A stretch of 39,368 bases of DNA from Actinomycetes bacterium (GTDB lineage: Bacteria; Actinomycetota; Acidimicrobiia; Acidimicrobiales; GCA-2861595), in assembly GCA_023264975.1 (NCBI GenBank), contig JAHFUS010000039.1, positions 1 to 39,368 of the forward strand. Reading direction: 5' to 3'. Positions within the stretch are counted from its first letter, which is position 1. The number at the start of each line of letters is the position of its first letter. A program made the translations under genes and the position numbers. Under the pieces are notes generated by a model. The model searched no databases. It was not told where the DNA came from and was given only the letters and a program-made list of their open reading frames with translations. Positions 4,662 to 12,931 of the stretch are shown one piece after another.

Positions 4662-6085
4662 TGTTCCGCGCCCACCCAGGCAAGCTGGCGTTGGGGGCGT
4701 GGTTCGACGGCGAAGGACCAGATCGCGTCGGCGCCCATGTCCTGCGCTGCTCCCGCTGCCAGCGCCACGTGTCCGAGCTGTCCCGCCTCCGGTCATGGCT
4801 GCGCACCCAGCCGTTCGTCGCCATGGGCGAGGACAATCGGGTCCGCGAGGCGGCACCACCGGCGCACGGCAAGAAGCCGATCGTCGTCCTCGCCGCTCTG
4901 CTCGCGGCGTTCCTGGTCGTGGCCGACAAGGCCGACGTGCCGCGCCAGCTCACCGCTTCGGCCCCGAGGGCCACGACCACGACGGCCGCCGCCGCGGCTG
5001 CCGCCGGCGCCGAGGAGCCGCCGACCACCGTCGCCGCCGAGGCGCCCGCCGCCGAGCCCGAAGCGGCTCCGGCGGCCGACCACGCGCCCCGCCTCCAGCC
5101 GTCCACGTCCGACGCCGGCACGGTGTCCCAGCAGGCACTGGCCCGGGCCCGTCAACCCAGTGCCACCCAGCCGCTGCGCCTGGGCGTGATCGTGCCCACC
5201 CGCGGCACCTCGGCCGCCGAGGGCACCGAGGTGGCCGAGGTCGTTCGACAGCGGGTCGCCGCAGCCAACGCGGCCGGTGGCGTCGCGGGCGTACCCGTGG
5301 AGCTCGGGGTGGCCGCCGCCGAGGACGCCGCCGCTGTCGCCGCGCTTGTCAGCCGGGCCACCGTCCTGGTCGGCGGGTTCGGCGCCGAGGCCCCCCAGGG
5401 CATCCCGTGGCTGCTCCCAGCCGACCCGGCCATCGCCGGCGACAGCGTCATCCCGGCAGAGTCGCCCGCCCGATCGGCCGGCATCCAGCTCGCCTCCCTC
5501 CTGCGCAAGCAGGGACTCACCGGCACCATCGGAGTGATCGTCGGACCCGGGCCCGACGCCGCCCTGGCCGGCGGCCTGGCCGCGAAGGCCAGCACGACCA
5601 CGGTCAACGCCCAGGAGTCGGGCAACTGCGACCGGGAGGTCGCCACGCTGGCCCGCTCGGGGGTCGTCGCCCTGGCCATCGCCGGCAGTCCCGATCTCGC
5701 CGCCAAGTGCATGCGGGCCGCATTCCGTGCCCTCTGGCGCCCCATCTTCGGCACCGTGCTCGCCCCCTCGGCGGCGTACGCCGGCCTCCAGTCCATGCCC
5801 GAGGCCATCGGCGCCCGCACCGTGCTGGGCCTGCCGTGGCCCACGTCGGCCGCCCCCGGCGCGGCCCGCTTCCGGTCCACCACCGAATCGCTGTCGTACC
5901 GGGCGCTCGTGTCCTACGCCGCCACCGAGCTGGCGATCGATGTGGCCCGCCGCCAGGGCGGGGTGTCGCTTGAGTCGGTCGAGGCGGGCATCTGGCGCAA
6001 CGACCTCATCGACCTCACCGGCCTCACAAGCCGGGCCAACACCCTCGTGGTGGCCTTCCTCGGGACGTGGTTGATCGCCGGCTAG
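4658..6085 (+). CDS. Predicted ligand-sensing transmembrane anti-sigma factor (zinc finger + periplasmic-binding domain)
   Basis: A 475-residue protein in three parts. Residues 1-60 are a short anti-sigma zinc-finger-like domain with H27-x3-C31-x2-C34 (HVLRCSRC), plus H6 as a possible further ligand. Residues 75-89 (IVVLAALLAAFLVVA) form one short membrane segment. A low-complexity Ala/Thr/Pro linker (about 95-168) leads to residues about 170-475, which resemble type I periplasmic binding proteins of the Leu/Ile/Val receptor family: LRLGVIVPTRGTSAAEGTEV, then NAAGGVAGVPVEL, close to the family's NaaGGvnGrpi signature. Inference: ligand binding outside controls release of the ECF sigma factor inside. 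Start GTG 4658 or ATG 4661. Its stop overlaps the convergent TetR stop. Confidence 0.8.
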   Translation: MMFRAHPGKLALGAWFDGEGPDRVGAHVLRCSRCQRHVSELSRLRSWLRTQPFVAMGEDNRVREAAPPAHGKKPIVVLAALLAAFLVVADKADVPRQLTASAPRATTTTAAAAAAAGAEEPPTTVAAEAPAAEPEAAPAADHAPRLQPSTSDAGTVSQQALARARQPSATQPLRLGVIVPTRGTSAAEGTEVAEVVRQRVAAANAAGGVAGVPVELGVAAAEDAAAVAALVSRATVLVGGFGAEAPQGIPWLLPADPAIAGDSVIPAESPARSAGIQLASLLRKQGLTGTIGVIVGPGPDAALAGGLAAKASTTTVNAQESGNCDREVATLARSGVVALAIAGSPDLAAKCMRAAFRALWRPIFGTVLAPSAAYAGLQSMPEAIGARTVLGLPWPTSAAPGAARFRSTTESLSYRALVSYAATELAIDVARRQGGVSLESVEAGIWRNDLIDLTGLTSRANTLVVAFLGTWLIAG

Positions 6086-6717
6086 AAGGGGGCTCGCCGA
6101 GGAAGCTCCGCTTCCGAGTGCGAAACGAGGGCCGAGCGGAGGAACAGGAGCAGCTGGTTGCGGCGTCGGACGAGGTCCCGGGCGGTTGGTTGAAAGCCCA
6201 GGGCGAGGAGCACCTCGACCTCCGTCGCCATCCCCAGCACGGCCGAGTAGGCGGCGAGGAGCACCATGCGGGGGTCCTGGGCCCGCATGTGGCCGGCCTC
6301 CATCTCGCACCGCAGGAACCCGGTGGCACGGCCCATGAGGGGCTCGATGGCGGCCAGCAGGCGGGTGGCCGCAGGGGGGCCGAGGCGGCTGGCCTCCCGC
6401 ACCACGCCCAGCAGCTCGGGCCGGCGTACCGAGACCCGGAAGATCGACTTCACGATCGCCTCGACCCGGTCCCAGCCCTGGCCGGCGCCCGACAGGGCCC
6501 GCTCCAGCGTGGCCTCGAGCTCGCCCGCAGTGCGGTCGATCACCGCCTCCAGCAGAGCGTCCTTGGACGGGTACCAGTAGAGGATGGTCTGCTTGCGCAG
6601 GCCCAGCCCCTTGGCCAGGGCGTCGAGCGAGGTGGCCTCGTAGCCCCTGGTGCCGAACGACTCGACGGCGGCGAGGAGCACCCGCTCCCCCGTCGTCGCC
6701 GTCGTGAGCGTGGCCAT
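6082..6717 (-). CDS. TetR/AcrR-family transcriptional repressor
   Basis: A 211-residue TetR protein. The N-terminal helix-turn-helix (residues about 5-55) reads ERVLLAAVESFGTRGYEATS, then LDALAKGLGLRKQTILYWYP, with the typical 'G..tsl..iA...G.....lY.yF' pattern. The rest is a helical ligand-binding domain. The ATG at 6717 is chosen because the DNA-binding domain begins right after it; an upstream GTG at 6756 would place the start inside the operator. It is divergent from the acyl-reductase/HAD gene, with an 18-nt perfect palindrome between them. That is the standard layout for a repressor controlling itself and the divergent operon, probably in response to an acyl-CoA or lipid intermediate (inference). 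Confidence 0.92.
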   Translation of the reverse strand: MATLTTATTGERVLLAAVESFGTRGYEATSLDALAKGLGLRKQTILYWYPSKDALLEAVIDRTAGELEATLERALSGAGQGWDRVEAIVKSIFRVSVRRPELLGVVREASRLGPPAATRLLAAIEPLMGRATGFLRCEMEAGHMRAQDPRMVLLAAYSAVLGMATEVEVLLALGFQPTARDLVRRRNQLLLFLRSALVSHSEAELPRRAPF

Positions 6718-6747
6718 CCAGCATGGTAGATCTGGCGTGGTGGCCTC

Positions 6748-6765
6748 GTCTACCAAGTGGTAGAC
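6748..6765. promoter_or_regulatory. Palindromic operator, probable TetR binding site
   Basis: GTCTACCAAGTGGTAGAC is a perfect 8-bp inverted repeat with a 2-bp centre. It lies in the 57-bp gap between the divergent TetR and acyl-reductase genes and ends 9 nt before the ATG at 6775, just ahead of an AGGGG ribosome-binding site. A further half-site, ATGGTAGA, lies at 6723-6730. Size and symmetry fit a TetR dimer site. Confidence 0.75.
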
Positions 6766-6774
6766 AGGGGCCCG

Positions 6775-9177
6775 ATGATCACCAGCGCACTGGAGGGCAA
6801 GCGCATAGGCGTCACCGGGGCCACCGGCTTTCTGGGTACCGCCCTAGTTGAGCGCCTGCTGCGGGTCGTGCCCGGCTGCGAGGTCGTGGTGGTGGTGCGG
6901 GCGGGCAGGCGCACGCCCGCCGCCCAGCGCGTTAAGCGGGAGATCCTGCGCAACGACTGCTTCGACCGCCTGCGCCAGCAGTGGGGCACGGGCTTCGACG
7001 CCGAGATGGACCGCCGCCTCAAGACGGTCGCAGGCGATGTGTCGACCGAGGGCCTCGGCCTCGACGACGAGGACCGGGCCCTGTTCCGCTCGTGCGACAT
7101 CGTCGTGCACTCAGCCGCCTCGGTGAGCTTCGACTCGCCCCTCGACGCCGCCGTCGAGGTCAACCTGCTGGGCGGTAGCCGCGTGGCCGAGGTGCTGGGC
7201 GACGACCGTGCGCCCGGTGACCCGGTCCCCTACCTGGTGGCCGTGTCCACCGCCTACGTGGCGGGCACCCGCCGGGGCGAGTCCCCCGAGGCCCTGCTGC
7301 CCGACACACCGTTCGCCATCGACCTCGACTGGCAGGCCGAGGTTCACGCCGCCCGCCAGGCCCGCTCCGACGCCGAGGCCGAGAGCCGCCGGCCGGAACG
7401 GTTGACCCTGTTCGCCAAGGCGGCCCGCAGCGAGCTCGGAGCGGCCGGCGCCCCCCTGCTTGCCGACAAGCTGGAGAAGCTGCGCACCGAGTGGGTCCGC
7501 GAGCGCATGGTGCAGGCGGGCAAGTCCCGGGCCCACTCCCTCGGCTGGCCCGACGCCTACGCCTACACCAAGGCCCTGGGCGAGCGGGCCCTCCTGGCCA
7601 ACCGGGGCGACGTGCCCGTGTCCTTCGTACGCCCGTCGATCATCGAGTCCGCCCTGGCCGAGCCGAAGCCGGGCTGGATCCGCGGCTTCCGCATGGCCGA
7701 GCCCGTGATCATCAGCTACGGCCGGGGGCTGCTCAAGCAGTTCCCCGGCATCCCCGAGGGCGTGGTCGACGTGATCCCCGTCGACATGGTGGTGGCCGCC
7801 ATCATCGCCGTGGCCGCCCGTGGCCCACTTCCGGAAGGGCCCGACGTGGTGCAGGTGGCTTCGGGTCAACGAAACCCGCTGCGGTACAGGCGGCTGGTGA
7901 AGCTGGTGCAGACGTGGTTCGAGGAGCACCCGCTCTACGACACCGACGGACAGCCCATCGTCGTGCCGGAGTGGTCGTTCCCCGGCCGGGGCCGGGTGCA
8001 GCGCCAGCTCCAGCGGGCCACCACCGCCCTGTCCACCGCCGAGAAGGTCATCACCACCCTCCCCATCCGGGGCAAAAAGGCGCAGCTGTCGTCCCGCATC
8101 GAGGAGAAGCGCGAGCTCGCCGAACGGGCCCTCGGCTACGTGGAGCTGTACGGCGCCTACGCCGAGACCGAGGCCGTTTTCAAGATCGACCGCCTCCTCG
8201 CCCTGTTCGGGTCGCTCGACGACGCCGACAAGGCCACCTTCGCCTTCGACCCGATCGCCATCGACTGGGCCTACTTCGTGCAGGAGGTGCACCTCCCGTC
8301 GATCGTGGCCCAGGCGCGGGTCCGCACCACGCCGGGCAAGCGCAAGACAGCGTCGCGCTCCGACCGGGGCCGCAAGGCGGTGCTGTCCCCCGACCGCCAC
8401 ATCGCCGCCTTCGACCTGGAGAACACGCTCATCGCCTCCAACGTCGTGGAGAGCTACTCGTGGCTGGCCACCCGCCACCTCCCGGCCGACGAGCGGGTCC
8501 GCTTCGTGCTGCGCACCCTCCGGGAGGCGCCTACCCTCCTCGCCCTCGACCGCCGCGACCGCGGCGACTTCCTGCGCCACTTCTACCGCCGCTACGAGGG
8601 CGCCTCCCGCCAGCAGGTGGGCGACGACGCCTGGAACATGTTCTCCGACCTCATCCTGCGCAAGGCCTTCCCGGCCGGCATCCGCAGGGTGCGCGAGCAC
8701 CGCGCCCTCGGCCACCGCACGCTGCTCATCACCGGCGCACTCGACTTCGCCATCGAGCCCCTGCGCCCCCTGTTCGACGACATCGTGTGCGCCAAGCTGG
8801 GCACCGATTCCGACGGGCGGCTGACCGGCGAGCTGCTGACCGGCCCCCCCACCGGCGAGGCCCGCGCCCTGGTGATGGCCCGCTACGCCGAGGCCGAGGG
8901 GCTGTCGCTCACCGAGTCGGTGGCCTACGCCGACTCCGCGTCCGACCTGCCGATGCTGGAGGCGGTGGGCCATCCGGTCGCCGTCAACCCCGAAGCAAAG
9001 CTGGCCACCATCGCCCGCAAGCGGGGCTGGCACGTCGAGCAGTGGTCCAAGGCGCCCGGCGCCCCCCGCCCCCTGCTCCCCATCGGCCCCCTCCTCCACG
9101 TCCCCCGGGGCCGGTCCCGAGTAAATAACCACCGGAATCCGGTGGCTATTTCCTCGAAAGGTGGGGAGACAGGGTGA
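6775..9177 (+). CDS. Fatty acyl-CoA reductase-like SDR fused to a HAD-IB phosphatase-like domain
   Basis: An 800-residue two-domain protein. The N-terminal half resembles the 'male sterility'/fatty acyl-CoA reductase family (NAD_binding_4): GATGFLG cofactor loop at residues 15-21, VSTAYVAG, and catalytic YxxxK at Y262-K266 (YAYTK). Such enzymes reduce acyl thioesters to aldehydes or alcohols with NAD(P)H. From about residue 540 there is a HAD-IB domain: motif I is FDLENTL (nucleophile D547, but Glu at 549 where phosphatases have Asp), motif II is LLITGA, and motif IV is YADSASDLPML. In mycobacteria HAD-IB domains are found fused to PlsC, and a PlsC gene ends this cluster. ATG 6775 follows AGGGG. 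The last ~20 residues are encoded by a palindromic repeat. Confidence 0.85.
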   Translation: MITSALEGKRIGVTGATGFLGTALVERLLRVVPGCEVVVVVRAGRRTPAAQRVKREILRNDCFDRLRQQWGTGFDAEMDRRLKTVAGDVSTEGLGLDDEDRALFRSCDIVVHSAASVSFDSPLDAAVEVNLLGGSRVAEVLGDDRAPGDPVPYLVAVSTAYVAGTRRGESPEALLPDTPFAIDLDWQAEVHAARQARSDAEAESRRPERLTLFAKAARSELGAAGAPLLADKLEKLRTEWVRERMVQAGKSRAHSLGWPDAYAYTKALGERALLANRGDVPVSFVRPSIIESALAEPKPGWIRGFRMAEPVIISYGRGLLKQFPGIPEGVVDVIPVDMVVAAIIAVAARGPLPEGPDVVQVASGQRNPLRYRRLVKLVQTWFEEHPLYDTDGQPIVVPEWSFPGRGRVQRQLQRATTALSTAEKVITTLPIRGKKAQLSSRIEEKRELAERALGYVELYGAYAETEAVFKIDRLLALFGSLDDADKATFAFDPIAIDWAYFVQEVHLPSIVAQARVRTTPGKRKTASRSDRGRKAVLSPDRHIAAFDLENTLIASNVVESYSWLATRHLPADERVRFVLRTLREAPTLLALDRRDRGDFLRHFYRRYEGASRQQVGDDAWNMFSDLILRKAFPAGIRRVREHRALGHRTLLITGALDFAIEPLRPLFDDIVCAKLGTDSDGRLTGELLTGPPTGEARALVMARYAEAEGLSLTESVAYADSASDLPMLEAVGHPVAVNPEAKLATIARKRGWHVEQWSKAPGAPRPLLPIGPLLHVPRGRSRVNNHRNPVAISSKGGETG
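9118..9156. repeat. 39-nt palindromic repeat, variant core
   Basis: Third, divergent member of the 39-nt hairpin family seen at 11976 and 17578. It has the same length, the same left end (TCCCGAGTAAATA) and nearly the same right end (TATTTCCTCGAAAG), but a different core in which both arms have changed together (ACCACCGG with CCGGTGG, loop AAT). Two of 18 pairs do not match on this strand. It lies within the last codons of the acyl-reductase/HAD gene, just before the dehydrogenase start. Confidence 0.8.
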
Positions 9178-10334
9178 AGGCGCTCGTATACGAGCGGTCG
9201 ATCCCGAAGTTCGCGGCGGCGCGGGTGGCCAGCGCCCTCGGTGGCGCCGGCAGCCGGGTGGGGCCGCTGCACCTGACCGACGTGGACGAGCCCGCCCTGC
9301 CCGGCCCCGGGTGGCACCGGGTGCGACCGCGCCTGGCCGGCATCTGCGGATCGGACCTGGCCACGGTGGACGCCAAAAGCAGCCGGTGGTTCGAGGGCGT
9401 GGTGAGCTTCCCGTTCGTGCCCGGCCACGAGGTGGTGGGCGACCTCGACGACGGCACCCGCGTCGTCCTCGAACCGGTGCTGGCATGCGCGGCGCGGGGC
9501 ATCGACCCACCGTGCGACGCCTGTGCGGCCGGCGACAACGGCAACTGCGAGCGCATCTCGTTCGGGTGCCTGGAACCCGGGCTACAGACCGGCTACTGCG
9601 CCGACACGGGCGGCGGCTGGTCGCACGCCCTGGTGGCCCACGACAGCCAGCTGCACACGGTGCCCGACGCCATGAGCGATGAGGCGGCGGTCATGGTCGA
9701 ACCTGCAGCCTGTGCCACCCACGCCGTCCAGTCATCGGCCATCCCCGAGGGGGCGGTGGTGGCCGTGCTGGGCGCCGGCACCCTCGGCCTGTGCTCCATC
9801 GCCGCCCTGCGCCGGCTGGCCCTGCCGGGCACGGTGATCGCCGGCGCCAAGCACGACGTGCAGCGGCGGCTGGCCGCCGACCTGGGGGCCGACGTGGTGG
9901 TGGCGCCGGGCGAGATGGCGCGGGCCGTACGCCGCCAGACCCGCTCGCTGTCGGTCGACGGCCGCCTCACCGGCGGGGCCGACGTGGTGGTGGACTGCGT
10001 CGGGTCGGCCGACTCGCTGGAGCAGGCACTGGCCGTCGTCCGCCCCAAGGGCACCATCGTGCTGGTCGGCATGCCCGGCAGCGTGCGGGTCGACCTCACG
10101 CCGCTGTGGCAGCGGGAGATCCGCCTGGTGGGCTCCTACGCCTACCGTCACACCACCTTCGCCACCGCCTTCGAGCTGGTGGCCGAGTCCCGCCTCGAAC
10201 GCCTGGTGTCCGCCCTGTACCCGCTGGAGCGCTGGCGGGAGGCCCTCGACCACGCCGCCGCGTCCGGCCGGCGTGGGGCCGTCAAGATCGCCTTCGACCT
10301 CCGGTCGACCAAGAAGAGGTCAGCGAAGCCATGA
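9174..10334 (+). CDS. Zinc-dependent medium-chain alcohol dehydrogenase
   Basis: A 386-residue MDR-family dehydrogenase. Catalytic zinc ligands are visible in GICGSDL (Cys) and GHEVVG (His, Glu), with EPAAC further on. The structural-zinc cysteines lie in ACAARGIDPPCDACAAGDNG plus the following Cys (C-x2-C-x7-C). The Rossmann loop VLGAGTLGLCS binds NAD(P). It oxidises an alcohol or reduces an aldehyde; the substrate is unknown, but context suggests a product or precursor of the upstream acyl reductase or of the LarA-like enzyme. The GTG start overlaps the upstream TGA (GTGA), and its own stop overlaps a 13-codon bridging frame. Confidence 0.92.
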   Translation: MKALVYERSIPKFAAARVASALGGAGSRVGPLHLTDVDEPALPGPGWHRVRPRLAGICGSDLATVDAKSSRWFEGVVSFPFVPGHEVVGDLDDGTRVVLEPVLACAARGIDPPCDACAAGDNGNCERISFGCLEPGLQTGYCADTGGGWSHALVAHDSQLHTVPDAMSDEAAVMVEPAACATHAVQSSAIPEGAVVAVLGAGTLGLCSIAALRRLALPGTVIAGAKHDVQRRLAADLGADVVVAPGEMARAVRRQTRSLSVDGRLTGGADVVVDCVGSADSLEQALAVVRPKGTIVLVGMPGSVRVDLTPLWQREIRLVGSYAYRHTTFATAFELVAESRLERLVSALYPLERWREALDHAAASGRRGAVKIAFDLRSTKKRSAKP

Positions 10335-10372
10335 CATTGCGTGAGCGAAACGAACGAATGAGGTCGAAATAA
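10331..10372 (+). other. 13-codon micro-ORF or spacer between dehydrogenase and LarA-like gene
   Basis: An open frame MTLRERNERMRSK starts in the dehydrogenase stop (ATGA) and ends in the LarA-like start (TAATG). The DNA is unlike its surroundings in composition and uses rare codons. Part of it (AGG near 10361) can serve as ribosome-binding site for the ATG at 10372. It is more likely a coupling spacer than a functional peptide. Confidence 0.3.
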
Positions 10373-11958
10373 TGCCCCGCCCCGGCTTCGTGCTCGACGT
10401 CGACCGCTCCACCCCACCCACCCTTTTCTGGCACGGCGAGCAATTCCGTACGGAGCGCCTGCCCACGGGCAGCCGCATCATCTACCCGCCCGAGCCGCTG
10501 GCCGCGTTGGAGGACATCGACGGCGCCATCCGCCACGCCCTGCTCAACCCACTGGGCGACAGCCAGCCCCTGCCGTCGCTGCTGACGTCGGGCATGAAAC
10601 TCACCATCTGCTTCGACGACATCTCGCTGCCCCTGCCCCCGATGCAGCGGCCCGACATCCGCCAGCGGGTGATCGAGGCGGTGCTCGACATGGCCGCCGA
10701 CGCCGGCGTGGACGACGTGGTGCTCATCGCCGCCCTTGCTCTCCACCGGCGCATGACCGAGCCCGAACTGCGCCACGCCCTGGGCGACCGGGTGTACGAC
10801 TCGTTCGCCCCGTCGGGCCGCCTCACCCAGCTCGACGCCGAAGACCCCGAGCAGATGCTGCACCTGGGTACCACCGACCAGGGCGAGGACGTGGAGATCT
10901 CCAAGCGGGCCGCCACCAGCGACCTGATCGTGTACGTGAACATCAACCTGGTGGCAATGGACGGCGGCCACAAGAGCGTGGCCACGGGCCTCGCCTCCTA
11001 CCGCTCGCTCAAGCACCACCACAACGTGCGCACGCTCCAGCACAGCCGCTCGCTCATGGACCAGAAGCGCTCCGAGCTGCACACGAGCAACTGGCGCATG
11101 GGCCGCCACATCGCCGCCCAGGGGATCAAGATCTTCCAGATCGAGACCACCATGAACACCAATACCTTCCCCGACCAGTTCTCCTTCCTCATGAAGCGCG
11201 AGTGGGAGTGGACGGCCAGGGACCGCATGTCGTACATGGCCGTCAGCCGGTCGCTCGACCGCACGCCGTCCCGTCTCCGCACCACCATCTTCCAGGGCAT
11301 CAAGTCGCCCCACCAGATGACGTCCGTGCAGGCGGGCGAGGTGGAGGCAGTGCACGAGGTCACCACCGCCAACGTCCACCGCCAGCAGCTGGTGGAGGTC
11401 GAGGGCCAGACCGACATCCTCACCATGGGGCTGCCCTACATCTGCCCCTACAACGTGAATTCGGTGATGAACCCGATCCTGGTGGCGTGCCTCGGCCTCG
11501 GGTACTTCTTCAACCTCTACCGCAACAAGCCGCTCGTGCGGGAGGGTGGCGTGCTGATCATGCACCACCCCACGCCCCGTGCCTTCCACCCCGTGCACCA
11601 CCCGAGCTACATCGACTTCTTCGACCAGGTGCTGGCCCAGACCACCGACCCGCTGGAGATCGAGGCCAAGTTCGAGACGAGCTTCGCCACCGACCCCTGG
11701 TACATTCACCTGTACCGAACGAGCCACGCCTACCACGGTGTCCACCCGTTCTACATGTGGTACTGGTGCGCCCACGCCCTGCAGCACCTGGGCATGGTGA
11801 TCATCGTGGGCGGCGACCCCAAGTCGGTGCGCCGCCTCGGCTTCAAGCCGGCGTCCACCCTGTCGGATGCGTTGGAGATGGCGAGTGACGTCGTCGGCCC
11901 CTCCCCGACGCTCACCCACCTCCACGCCCCGCCCCTGCTCATAGCGGACGTGAAATGA
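10372..11958 (+). CDS. LarA-like (nickel-pincer lactate racemase family) protein
   Basis: A 528-residue protein with the LarA/DUF2088 fold. The N-domain has LTICFDDISLPLPP and IAALALHRRMTEPEL, matching LarA's 'D.tRp.P' and 'alG.HR.mt..El' motifs. MDGGHKSVATGLASYRSLKH matches the segment that holds the cofactor lysine and metal-binding histidine. H125, K201 and H217 have the same spacing (76 and 16) as LarA H108, K184 and H200 of Lactobacillus. The position matching the second catalytic base H174 is Ile191 (neighbours Asn), so two-base racemisation may not operate. The protein is about 100 residues longer than LarA, mostly C-terminal. No larB, larC or larE lies in this window. The substrate is unknown; cluster context suggests a hydroxy-acid or hydroxy-lipid intermediate. 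Confidence 0.8.
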   Translation: MPRPGFVLDVDRSTPPTLFWHGEQFRTERLPTGSRIIYPPEPLAALEDIDGAIRHALLNPLGDSQPLPSLLTSGMKLTICFDDISLPLPPMQRPDIRQRVIEAVLDMAADAGVDDVVLIAALALHRRMTEPELRHALGDRVYDSFAPSGRLTQLDAEDPEQMLHLGTTDQGEDVEISKRAATSDLIVYVNINLVAMDGGHKSVATGLASYRSLKHHHNVRTLQHSRSLMDQKRSELHTSNWRMGRHIAAQGIKIFQIETTMNTNTFPDQFSFLMKREWEWTARDRMSYMAVSRSLDRTPSRLRTTIFQGIKSPHQMTSVQAGEVEAVHEVTTANVHRQQLVEVEGQTDILTMGLPYICPYNVNSVMNPILVACLGLGYFFNLYRNKPLVREGGVLIMHHPTPRAFHPVHHPSYIDFFDQVLAQTTDPLEIEAKFETSFATDPWYIHLYRTSHAYHGVHPFYMWYWCAHALQHLGMVIIVGGDPKSVRRLGFKPASTLSDALEMASDVVGPSPTLTHLHAPPLLIADVK

Positions 11959-12022: not shown

Positions 12023-12931
12023 GTGAGGCTGCGGCCGCGGGCCCGGTTCCCGCTGGGCGCGCCGACGTGGCCGACGGGAGTGCCCCGCCCGCCGGTGGTG
12101 CGCGACACGGGGGTCAACTACGACACGGCGTGGGCGCGGAAGTACCCGGCGCGGCTGGCCCGGGCGCTGTGGCTCGACGGAGTGACGCGGCCGCTGATCA
12201 AGGGGCTGGCGGCACCGGACATCGACGGACTGGACCGCCTCGACGCCCTGCCGGCGCCGGTGATCTTCGCCGCCAACCACTCGAGCCACGTCGACACCCC
12301 ACTCGTGTTGACCTCGCTGCCGGAGCGGTTCCGGCACCGCACGGCGGTGGCGGCCGGCGCCGACTACTTCTTCGACAAGCGGTGGAAGGGCGGGCTGTGG
12401 GCCCTGTCCATCAACGCCATCCCCATCGAACGCACCCGGGTGAGCCCGCAGTCCACCAAGTTGGCGGTGTCGCTCATCCAGGACGGCTGGAGCCTCGTGA
12501 TCTTCCCCGAGGGCGGCCGCAGCCCGGACGGGTGGGGCCAGAGCCACCGGGCGGGCGCCGCCTACCTCGCCGTGCGAACGGGGGCGCCGGTGGTGCCCGT
12601 CCACCTGCACGGCACCCGCCGCATCCTCAAGAAGGGAGGCAAGGGCGTGCGCCCGTCCCACACCGAGGTGACCTTCGGGCGCCCGCTGCGAGCGGCGGAG
12701 GGCGAGAGCGCGGCCGACCTGGCCGTGCGCATCGAGCGGTCCATCGCCGTCCTGGCCGACGAGCGCTCCGAAGGCTTCTGGGACGCACGCCGCAACGCCG
12801 CCGCCGGCGCCACGCCCGCCCTCACCGGCCCCGGGCCCACCGGCTGGCGCCGGGCCTGGGCCCTTGAGGAGAACCGCCGACGGCAGGGCACGTCCAAGCC
12901 CTGGCCCCCCAGGAGCGCAGCGAGGGACTGA
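12023..12931 (+). CDS. PlsC-like 1-acyl-glycerol-3-phosphate acyltransferase family protein
   Basis: A 302-residue acyltransferase of the LPLAT family. Motif I is NHSSHVDT (HX4D catalytic pair, around residues 91-97). PIERTR is motif II and FPEGGRSPDG is motif III, which binds the phosphate or acceptor; VPVHLHGTRR matches motif IV. It transfers an acyl group from acyl-CoA or acyl-ACP to a glycerophosphate-type or other lipid acceptor at the membrane. The N-terminal ~70 residues and the charged tail lie outside the conserved domain. The GTG at 12023 follows hairpin copy A at 8 nt, and no clear Shine-Dalgarno is seen. As last gene of the cluster it suggests a lipid end-product. Confidence 0.88.
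   Translation: MRLRPRARFPLGAPTWPTGVPRPPVVRDTGVNYDTAWARKYPARLARALWLDGVTRPLIKGLAAPDIDGLDRLDALPAPVIFAANHSSHVDTPLVLTSLPERFRHRTAVAAGADYFFDKRWKGGLWALSINAIPIERTRVSPQSTKLAVSLIQDGWSLVIFPEGGRSPDGWGQSHRAGAAYLAVRTGAPVVPVHLHGTRRILKKGGKGVRPSHTEVTFGRPLRAAEGESAADLAVRIERSIAVLADERSEGFWDARRNAAAGATPALTGPGPTGWRRAWALEENRRRQGTSKPWPPRSAARD

Follow-up and report, generated by a model that had tools for sequence, protein, structure and literature searches.

A nickel-pincer-type LarA homologue without the second catalytic base is linked to a conserved bacterial lipid operon

This study suggests that a LarA homologue (here LarAH14), encoded in a 39,368-nucleotide stretch of DNA from an Acidimicrobiales genome (the window), is a single-base enzyme dependent on the nickel-pincer nucleotide (NPN) and would work not as a 2-hydroxyacid racemase but as a one-face hydride shuttle in an operon for glycerol-based, most likely ether-linked lipids, a reading to which we give about an even chance of being right. 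The narrower claim is the firmer one: LarAH14 is a single-base enzyme of the NPN type and is linked to a glycerolipid operon. To our knowledge, no reaction is known for single-histidine LarA enzymes. The family and the core idea of a hydride reaction other than racemisation are already in print, both in NCBIfam and in the available text of PMC7583248 and PMC12611868. The first of these papers raises the possibility of another hydride-mediated reaction for homologues without H174 and K298, and the second reports that LarAH groups 14 and 15 lack an H174 equivalent, that group 17 has an Asn, and that two single-histidine structures, LarA_Sp and LarA_Bw, have been solved. LarAH14 is therefore a member of an already named family and is not new in kind; what we add is its genomic context.

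The reading frame of LarAH14 (Table 1) opens with ATG, carries the codon signature of a coding sequence (GC1/2/3 of 0.64/0.42/0.95) and is a real gene. Pfam Lar_N (PF09861) matches the protein with an E value of 3.8e-36 and 124.7 bits over 23.3, revealing a LarA-superfamily domain, and this is the sole Lar_N match in the 3.78-Mb genome. The NCBIfam model NF052592, named 'NPN-dependent hydroxyacid isomerase, LarAH14/15/16 family', matches from end to end with 893.5 bits against a cut-off of 740. This family, which takes in LarAH groups 14/15 of Desguin et al. 2020 (PMC7583248), has the loss of H174 in common with LarAH14, and nothing in the comparison excludes membership. NF052592 joins groups 14, 15 and 16, whereas the available text of PMC7583248 sets group 16 aside, among the LarAH groups with non-conserved catalytic and cofactor residues; LarAH14 differs from group 16 in that it has all of these but H174 and R75. 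Plasmid records yielded no relative of the protein.

The predicted structure of LarAH14 agrees with this assignment. An AlphaFold2 model built with 46 sequences reaches a pLDDT of 89.4 and a pTM of 0.89, with a low-confidence loop at residues 359-363. The nearest solved relatives are LarA_Sp and LarA_Bw (9q2u/9q3k and 9q3j; PMC12611868), both by sequence (E 2.4e-35) and by fold, with 9q3k first (Z 39.3, rmsd 2.4 over 453 residues) and 9q3j next (Z 36.0, rmsd 2.6, 430 residues). These two single-histidine structures rank above the two-base enzymes 9eia (Z 31.4, rmsd 3.5, 410 residues) and 5huq, the lactate racemase LarA (Z 29.6, rmsd 3.3, 410 residues). Matches to folds other than LarA (Z 5.3 and below) were dismissed as background. 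LarA_Sp and LarA_Bw, with 498 and 505 residues, are also near LarAH14 in length, and their first base, lysine and nickel ligand are in register with those of LarAH14. The excess of about 100 residues over LarA that the first-pass annotation had noted is borne out, since LarAH14 has 528 residues and the 5huq chain 433, a difference of about 95. An octamer of tail-to-tail dimers is a feature of the LarA_Sp and LarA_Bw subfamily.

Table 1. Genes and active-site codons of the LarAH14 locus, in positions of the window
Feature	Positions	Strand	Basis
TetR-family regulator, divergent from operon	6082..6756	-	Pfam TetR_N 9e-12
FAR-HAD: fatty acyl-CoA reductase-type SDR fused to HAD-IB phosphatase, 806 aa	6757..9177	+	Pfam NAD_binding_4 2.6e-56, HAD 1.8e-24, Sterile 1.8e-5; conserved Y268-K272, D553
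Zinc-dependent alcohol/polyol dehydrogenase (Zn-ADH), 386 aa; 4-base overlap with FAR-HAD	9174..10334	+	Pfam ADH_zinc_N 5e-22, ADH_N 3.6e-10
LarAH14/15/16-family nickel-pincer-type enzyme, 528 aa	10372..11958	+	Pfam Lar_N, NCBIfam NF052592, AlphaFold2 model
Asp83 codon, equivalent of LarA D72	10618..10620	+	HMMER alignments; D in 102/103
Leu86 codon, at position of LarA R75 (cofactor phosphate and substrate carboxylate)	10627..10629	+	HMMER alignments; L in 101/103
His125 codon, predicted first catalytic base (LarA H108)	10744..10746	+	HMMER alignments; 103/103
Asn190-Ile191-Asn192 codons, shortened loop in place of H174 loop	10939..10947	+	Alignments, conservation
Lys201 codon, predicted covalent cofactor lysine (LarA K184)	10972..10974	+	HMMER alignments; 103/103
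His217 codon, predicted nickel ligand (LarA H200)	11020..11022	+	HMMER alignments; 103/103
PlsC-type acyltransferase, 302 aa, start codon uncertain	12023..12931	+	Pfam Acyltransferase 1.3e-17

The link of LarAH14 to a conserved lipid operon is well supported. In the window, FAR-HAD, Zn-ADH, LarAH14 and PlsC follow one another in one direction with the TetR gene divergent, which confirms the lipid-like cluster that the gene had been said to sit in. Among the best 80 of 581 loci, Zn-ADH lies directly 5' of the LarA gene in 80/80, FAR-HAD is upstream in all 70 that have more than 2 kb of room, PlsC lies directly 3' in 69 of the 70 with more than 1.1 kb of room (the exception is L099), and the TetR gene is divergent in 39 of the 51 with room. 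The order FAR-HAD, Zn-ADH, LarAH14 also holds in 15/15 loci sampled outside the order, from other families, at 54-67% identity, and ten of these have PlsC 3' of LarAH14. Three of the fifteen, L161, L162 and L165, all from the family of Rubrobacter, carry PlsY upstream in place of PlsC, confirmed in L165 and L162 by Pfam PF02660 (1.1e-51 and 3.7e-49); L157 has no room for PlsC, and at L151 PlsC was not found within about 1.7 kb. At L161, three unrelated genes are called between Zn-ADH and LarAH14 (8523-11023). The complete operon was found in none of 21 sampled loci of homologues near 40% identity or lower (<~45%), where weak matches to single genes occur (FAR-HAD at 32% in L167; Zn-ADH at 28% and 27% in L176 and L177). 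Two reading frames were discarded, namely 6067-6729 (+), proposed as a conserved neighbour and in fact antisense to the TetR gene, and 12067-12867, which reads the PlsC gene in the wrong frame.

The same association is seen across genomes. Of 38 genomes from this class, 21 have LarAH14 and 17 do not; full-length FAR-HAD is present in 21/21 of the former (in G211 it is divided between two contigs) and in 0/17 of the latter, which have short HAD or SDR pieces at most. The nucleophile of the HAD part, Asp553, is invariant in nine sequences. At residues 553-555, within the HAD motif DxDxT, the window and two aligned Acidimicrobiia sequences read D-L-E and two Rubrobacter-family sequences D-V-D. 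A FAR-type reductase, a HAD phosphohydrolase and an acyltransferase also occur together in the elb ether-lipid operon of Myxococcus xanthus (PMC9131029). That operon has acyl-CoA synthetase and ACP domains, which Pfam does not find in the four genes of the LarAH14 operon; conversely, LarA and Zn-ADH are part of the LarAH14 operon and are not described for elb in the available text of PMC9131029. The neighbours of LarA_Sp and LarA_Bw are glycolytic genes (PMC12611868), in contrast to the lipid genes around LarAH14.

For the active site we compared 103 distinct orthologues; they come from 110 loci, of which 80 are the best of 581 found by short peptide patterns outside residues 180-220. Residue equivalences were taken from HMMER alignments of LarAH14 to the solved LarA proteins. 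H125, K201 and H217 were said to reproduce the spacing of LarA H108, K184 and H200, and they do so exactly: the distances of 76 and 16 residues equal those in LarA, the three are in register both with LarA and with H115, K195 and H211 of LarA_Sp, and all three are invariant, as are N190 and H216. Judged from this alignment, K201 is the probable cofactor lysine, as had been supposed, and the gene encodes a nickel-pincer-type enzyme. The equivalents of H108, K184, H200 and D72 are thus common to LarAH14 and the lactate racemase; what LarAH14 lacks in comparison is H174 and R75, and it stands in another operon. The C-terminal domain, which in LarA holds the catalytic K298, did not align with LarA in HMMER.

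The absence of the second base was likewise upheld, as no conserved histidine occupies the H174 position at any alignment offset in the 103 orthologues and more distant relatives. The first-pass annotation described Ile191, flanked by Asn190 and Asn192, as the residue in place of H174; the three residues are as described, but we reject Ile191 as the equivalent. The segment from the conserved D184 to K201 has 17 residues in LarAH14 and 21 in LarA and LarA_Sp, and counting back ten from K201 to Ile191 is unsafe because of these four missing residues. The profile alignment to 5huq prefers Asn192 opposite H174, with an ambiguous placement within N190-V194. In LarA_Sp and LarA_Bw the Asn lies in a 21-residue Asp-Lys segment; N192 falls opposite that of LarA_Sp in a single-sequence (phmmer) alignment and elsewhere in the profile alignment, the loop being four residues shorter. 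N192 is kept in 101/103 orthologues, while in distant relatives N190, within a YVN or YIN motif, is kept more often than N192. By these alignments Asn192 or Asn190 is more likely than Ile191 to replace H174. The model places a strand at 185-192 and a helix from 200. His200 was rejected as a displaced second base, being W in 21/103 orthologues. Long LarA relatives of about 28-43% identity (L168-L171 and L173-L177), at loci without the complete lipid operon, keep the YVN/YIN motif, H125, GGWK and the nickel-ligand histidine; L175 has GGWS, with the cofactor lysine replaced.

A second loss accompanies that of H174. Position R75 of LarA, in register by HMMER, is Leu86 in LarAH14, where LarA_Sp and LarA_Bw have K76. 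In LarA_Ip the counterpart of R75 binds both the phosphate of the cofactor and the carboxylate of the substrate (PMC12611868), and the replacement of R75 argues against a 2-hydroxy-carboxylate substrate for LarAH14. With the second base and the carboxylate-binding arginine both missing, LarAH14 would not be a 2-hydroxyacid racemase. It is rather unlikely that LarAH14 is a one-directional 2-hydroxyacid racemase or epimerase, acting for example on a 2-hydroxy fatty acid, which would yield a 1,2-diol lipid after reduction by FAR-HAD, although one-directional racemisation has been proposed for single-histidine LarA enzymes (PMC12611868), the NCBIfam name is that of a hydroxyacid isomerase and an acyl reductase lies within the operon. 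Against this reading stand both the leucine in 101 of the 103 orthologues and the PlsY gene, for a glycerol-3-phosphate acyltransferase, that adjoins the operon in the three Rubrobacter-family loci and points to a glycerol backbone. We also consider it improbable that LarAH14 is a normal two-base isomerase whose second base is Asp197, Tyr360 or a C-terminal histidine such as His455 or His458; all four are invariant (103/103), but D197 is N in the tier near 40% identity, and we know of no published two-base LarA that uses their equivalents. What speaks for this second reading is that Y307 and H401 of LarA_Sp, which correspond to Y360 and H458, line the substrate site (PMC12611868). Pro359-Tyr360 (both 103/103) stands where the active site of LarA_Sp and LarA_Bw has His306-Tyr307, so that H306 becomes Pro359. 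The one family member that has been assayed, the LarAH14 of Frankia, was inactive in all seven isomerase tests (PMC7583248 Table 1), which counts against a normal two-base isomerase and agrees with the earlier suggestion that two-base racemisation is improbable; it fits the single-base proposal and is no proof of it.

An ether-lipid role of the LarAH14 operon is plausible, and the link comes from Rubrobacter only. The genome G110, source of L165, carries the operon, its LarA scores 857.6 bits against NF052592, and the first 6 kb of its 149,806-base contig are identical to a Rubrobacter radiotolerans plasmid. PF09989, which we take to be a proxy for PlsA/Ger, was absent from 11/11 genomes tested, of which seven belong to the family of G110, and the control, Thermotoga maritima, was positive. 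Neither was an AGPS-like best match found in G110, where both FAD-oxidase_C proteins best match glycolate oxidase or D-lactate dehydrogenase. Against an ether-lipid role, the window's own genome has a separate AGPS-like FAD protein (G000:C14:10841-11545, L199; best PDB match 2uuu, 1.4e-47). A putative operon for the synthesis of 1-O-alkyl-glycerol-phosphate is reportedly mentioned in the abstract of a paper on Rubrobacterales lipids; if this is the LarAH14 operon, the lipid link is already partly published. According to the title of that paper, cited in PMC11150832, Rubrobacterales have dominantly mixed ether/ester lipids. A lipid report for Acidimicrobiia was not found in the literature, and none of the papers listed joins 'nickel pincer' or 'lactate racemase' with ether lipid, fatty alcohol or phospholipid. 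FAR-type reductases make fatty alcohols, and the TetR neighbour is weakly similar to FasR, FadR and PsrA, both of which would suit an operon whose products are wax esters or free fatty alcohols rather than ether lipids of the membrane, with LarAH14 in a side role; we hold this to be quite improbable, as PlsC downstream and PlsY upstream in Rubrobacter are glycerophospholipid acyltransferases and the scanned genes of the window include no wax synthase.

The genes for making the cofactor accompany LarAH14. The first-pass annotation placed the gene far from larB, larC and larE, and a search elsewhere in the genome found larB and larC adjoining on contig C101 and larE on C58, all over cut-off. They do lie away from the window contig (C136), but separate contigs give no distance, and no meaning of such a distance is supported, since larB and larC track the gene across the class and in related genomes larE-larB-larC follow the operon directly 3' in three of 15 loci (L156, L160 and L164; in L156 each is over its NCBIfam cut-off). 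In the 38 genomes, LarB (E <= 4e-54) and LarC are each found in 19/21 with LarAH14 and 0/17 without, the best LarB matches in the latter being 6e-11 or weaker, or absent. The Fisher p values for co-occurrence of LarAH14 with FAR-HAD and with larB/larC, 3e-11 and 1e-8, overstate independence as the genomes are related. In the two exceptions of this search, G038 and G023, larB and larC were not found; their LarAH14 proteins (G038:C32, L132; G023:C34, L135) keep all cofactor residues and FAR-HAD is also present, and NPN salvage, assembly gaps or a cofactor-free role are possible readings. Although these two genomes speak for it, a LarA fold that serves as a scaffold or uses another cofactor is very improbable in view of the invariant K201, H217 and H125, the tracking of larB and larC with LarAH14 and the larE-larB-larC genes beside the operon in three loci.

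The residues, the family, the conservation of the operon and the co-occurrence with larB and larC are read directly from sequence, and from them we infer cofactor loading, substrate, ether product and stereochemical outcome as follows. In the single-base proposal, LarAH14 would hold NPN at Lys201, use His217 as nickel ligand and His125 as its sole acid/base, and take a hydride from a hydroxyl-bearing carbon and return it to the same face. Inversion at that carbon would call for a base on each face, whereas one base would do for retention. FAR-HAD would make a fatty aldehyde or alcohol, Zn-ADH would interconvert alcohol and carbonyl, LarAH14 would have the glycerol-phosphate or the alkyl portion as its target, and acylation would fall to PlsC, or to PlsY in Rubrobacter. 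The products would be glycerol-based membrane lipids with chains derived from fatty alcohols, most likely ether-linked.

As a long shot, we further speculate that LarAH14 is a hidden-redox enzyme, an alkylglycerol-phosphate synthase dependent on NPN. A hydride would pass from C2 of 1-acyl-glycerol-3-phosphate to the cofactor and the proton to His125, giving a ketone like acyl-dihydroxyacetone-phosphate; the ketone would activate C1, so that the acyl group could be exchanged for a fatty alcohol from FAR-HAD, and the hydride would then go back to the same face of C2. Such a retained configuration at C2 would need one base only and would explain the loss of H174, and R75 would have been lost because the substrate has no carboxylate. 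Replacement of the acyl group by a fatty alcohol is the step done by AGPS in animals. The animal ether-lipid pathway is described in PMC9131029.

The conserved lipid-making operon around LarAH14 suggests an unusual step in the building of bacterial membrane lipids. Its tie to an acyl-reductase and acyltransferase operon gives single-histidine LarA enzymes a concrete substrate class, in a culturable genus, Rubrobacter. If the one-face hydride shuttle is right, nickel-pincer cofactor chemistry would extend beyond the isomerisation of 2-hydroxyacids, and bacteria in which neither the PlsA/Ger proxy nor an AGPS-like best match was found would have a candidate ether-lipid enzyme. The hidden-redox reaction, if true, would provide these bacteria with a flavin-free, oxygen-independent route to ether lipids that uses an organometallic nickel cofactor.
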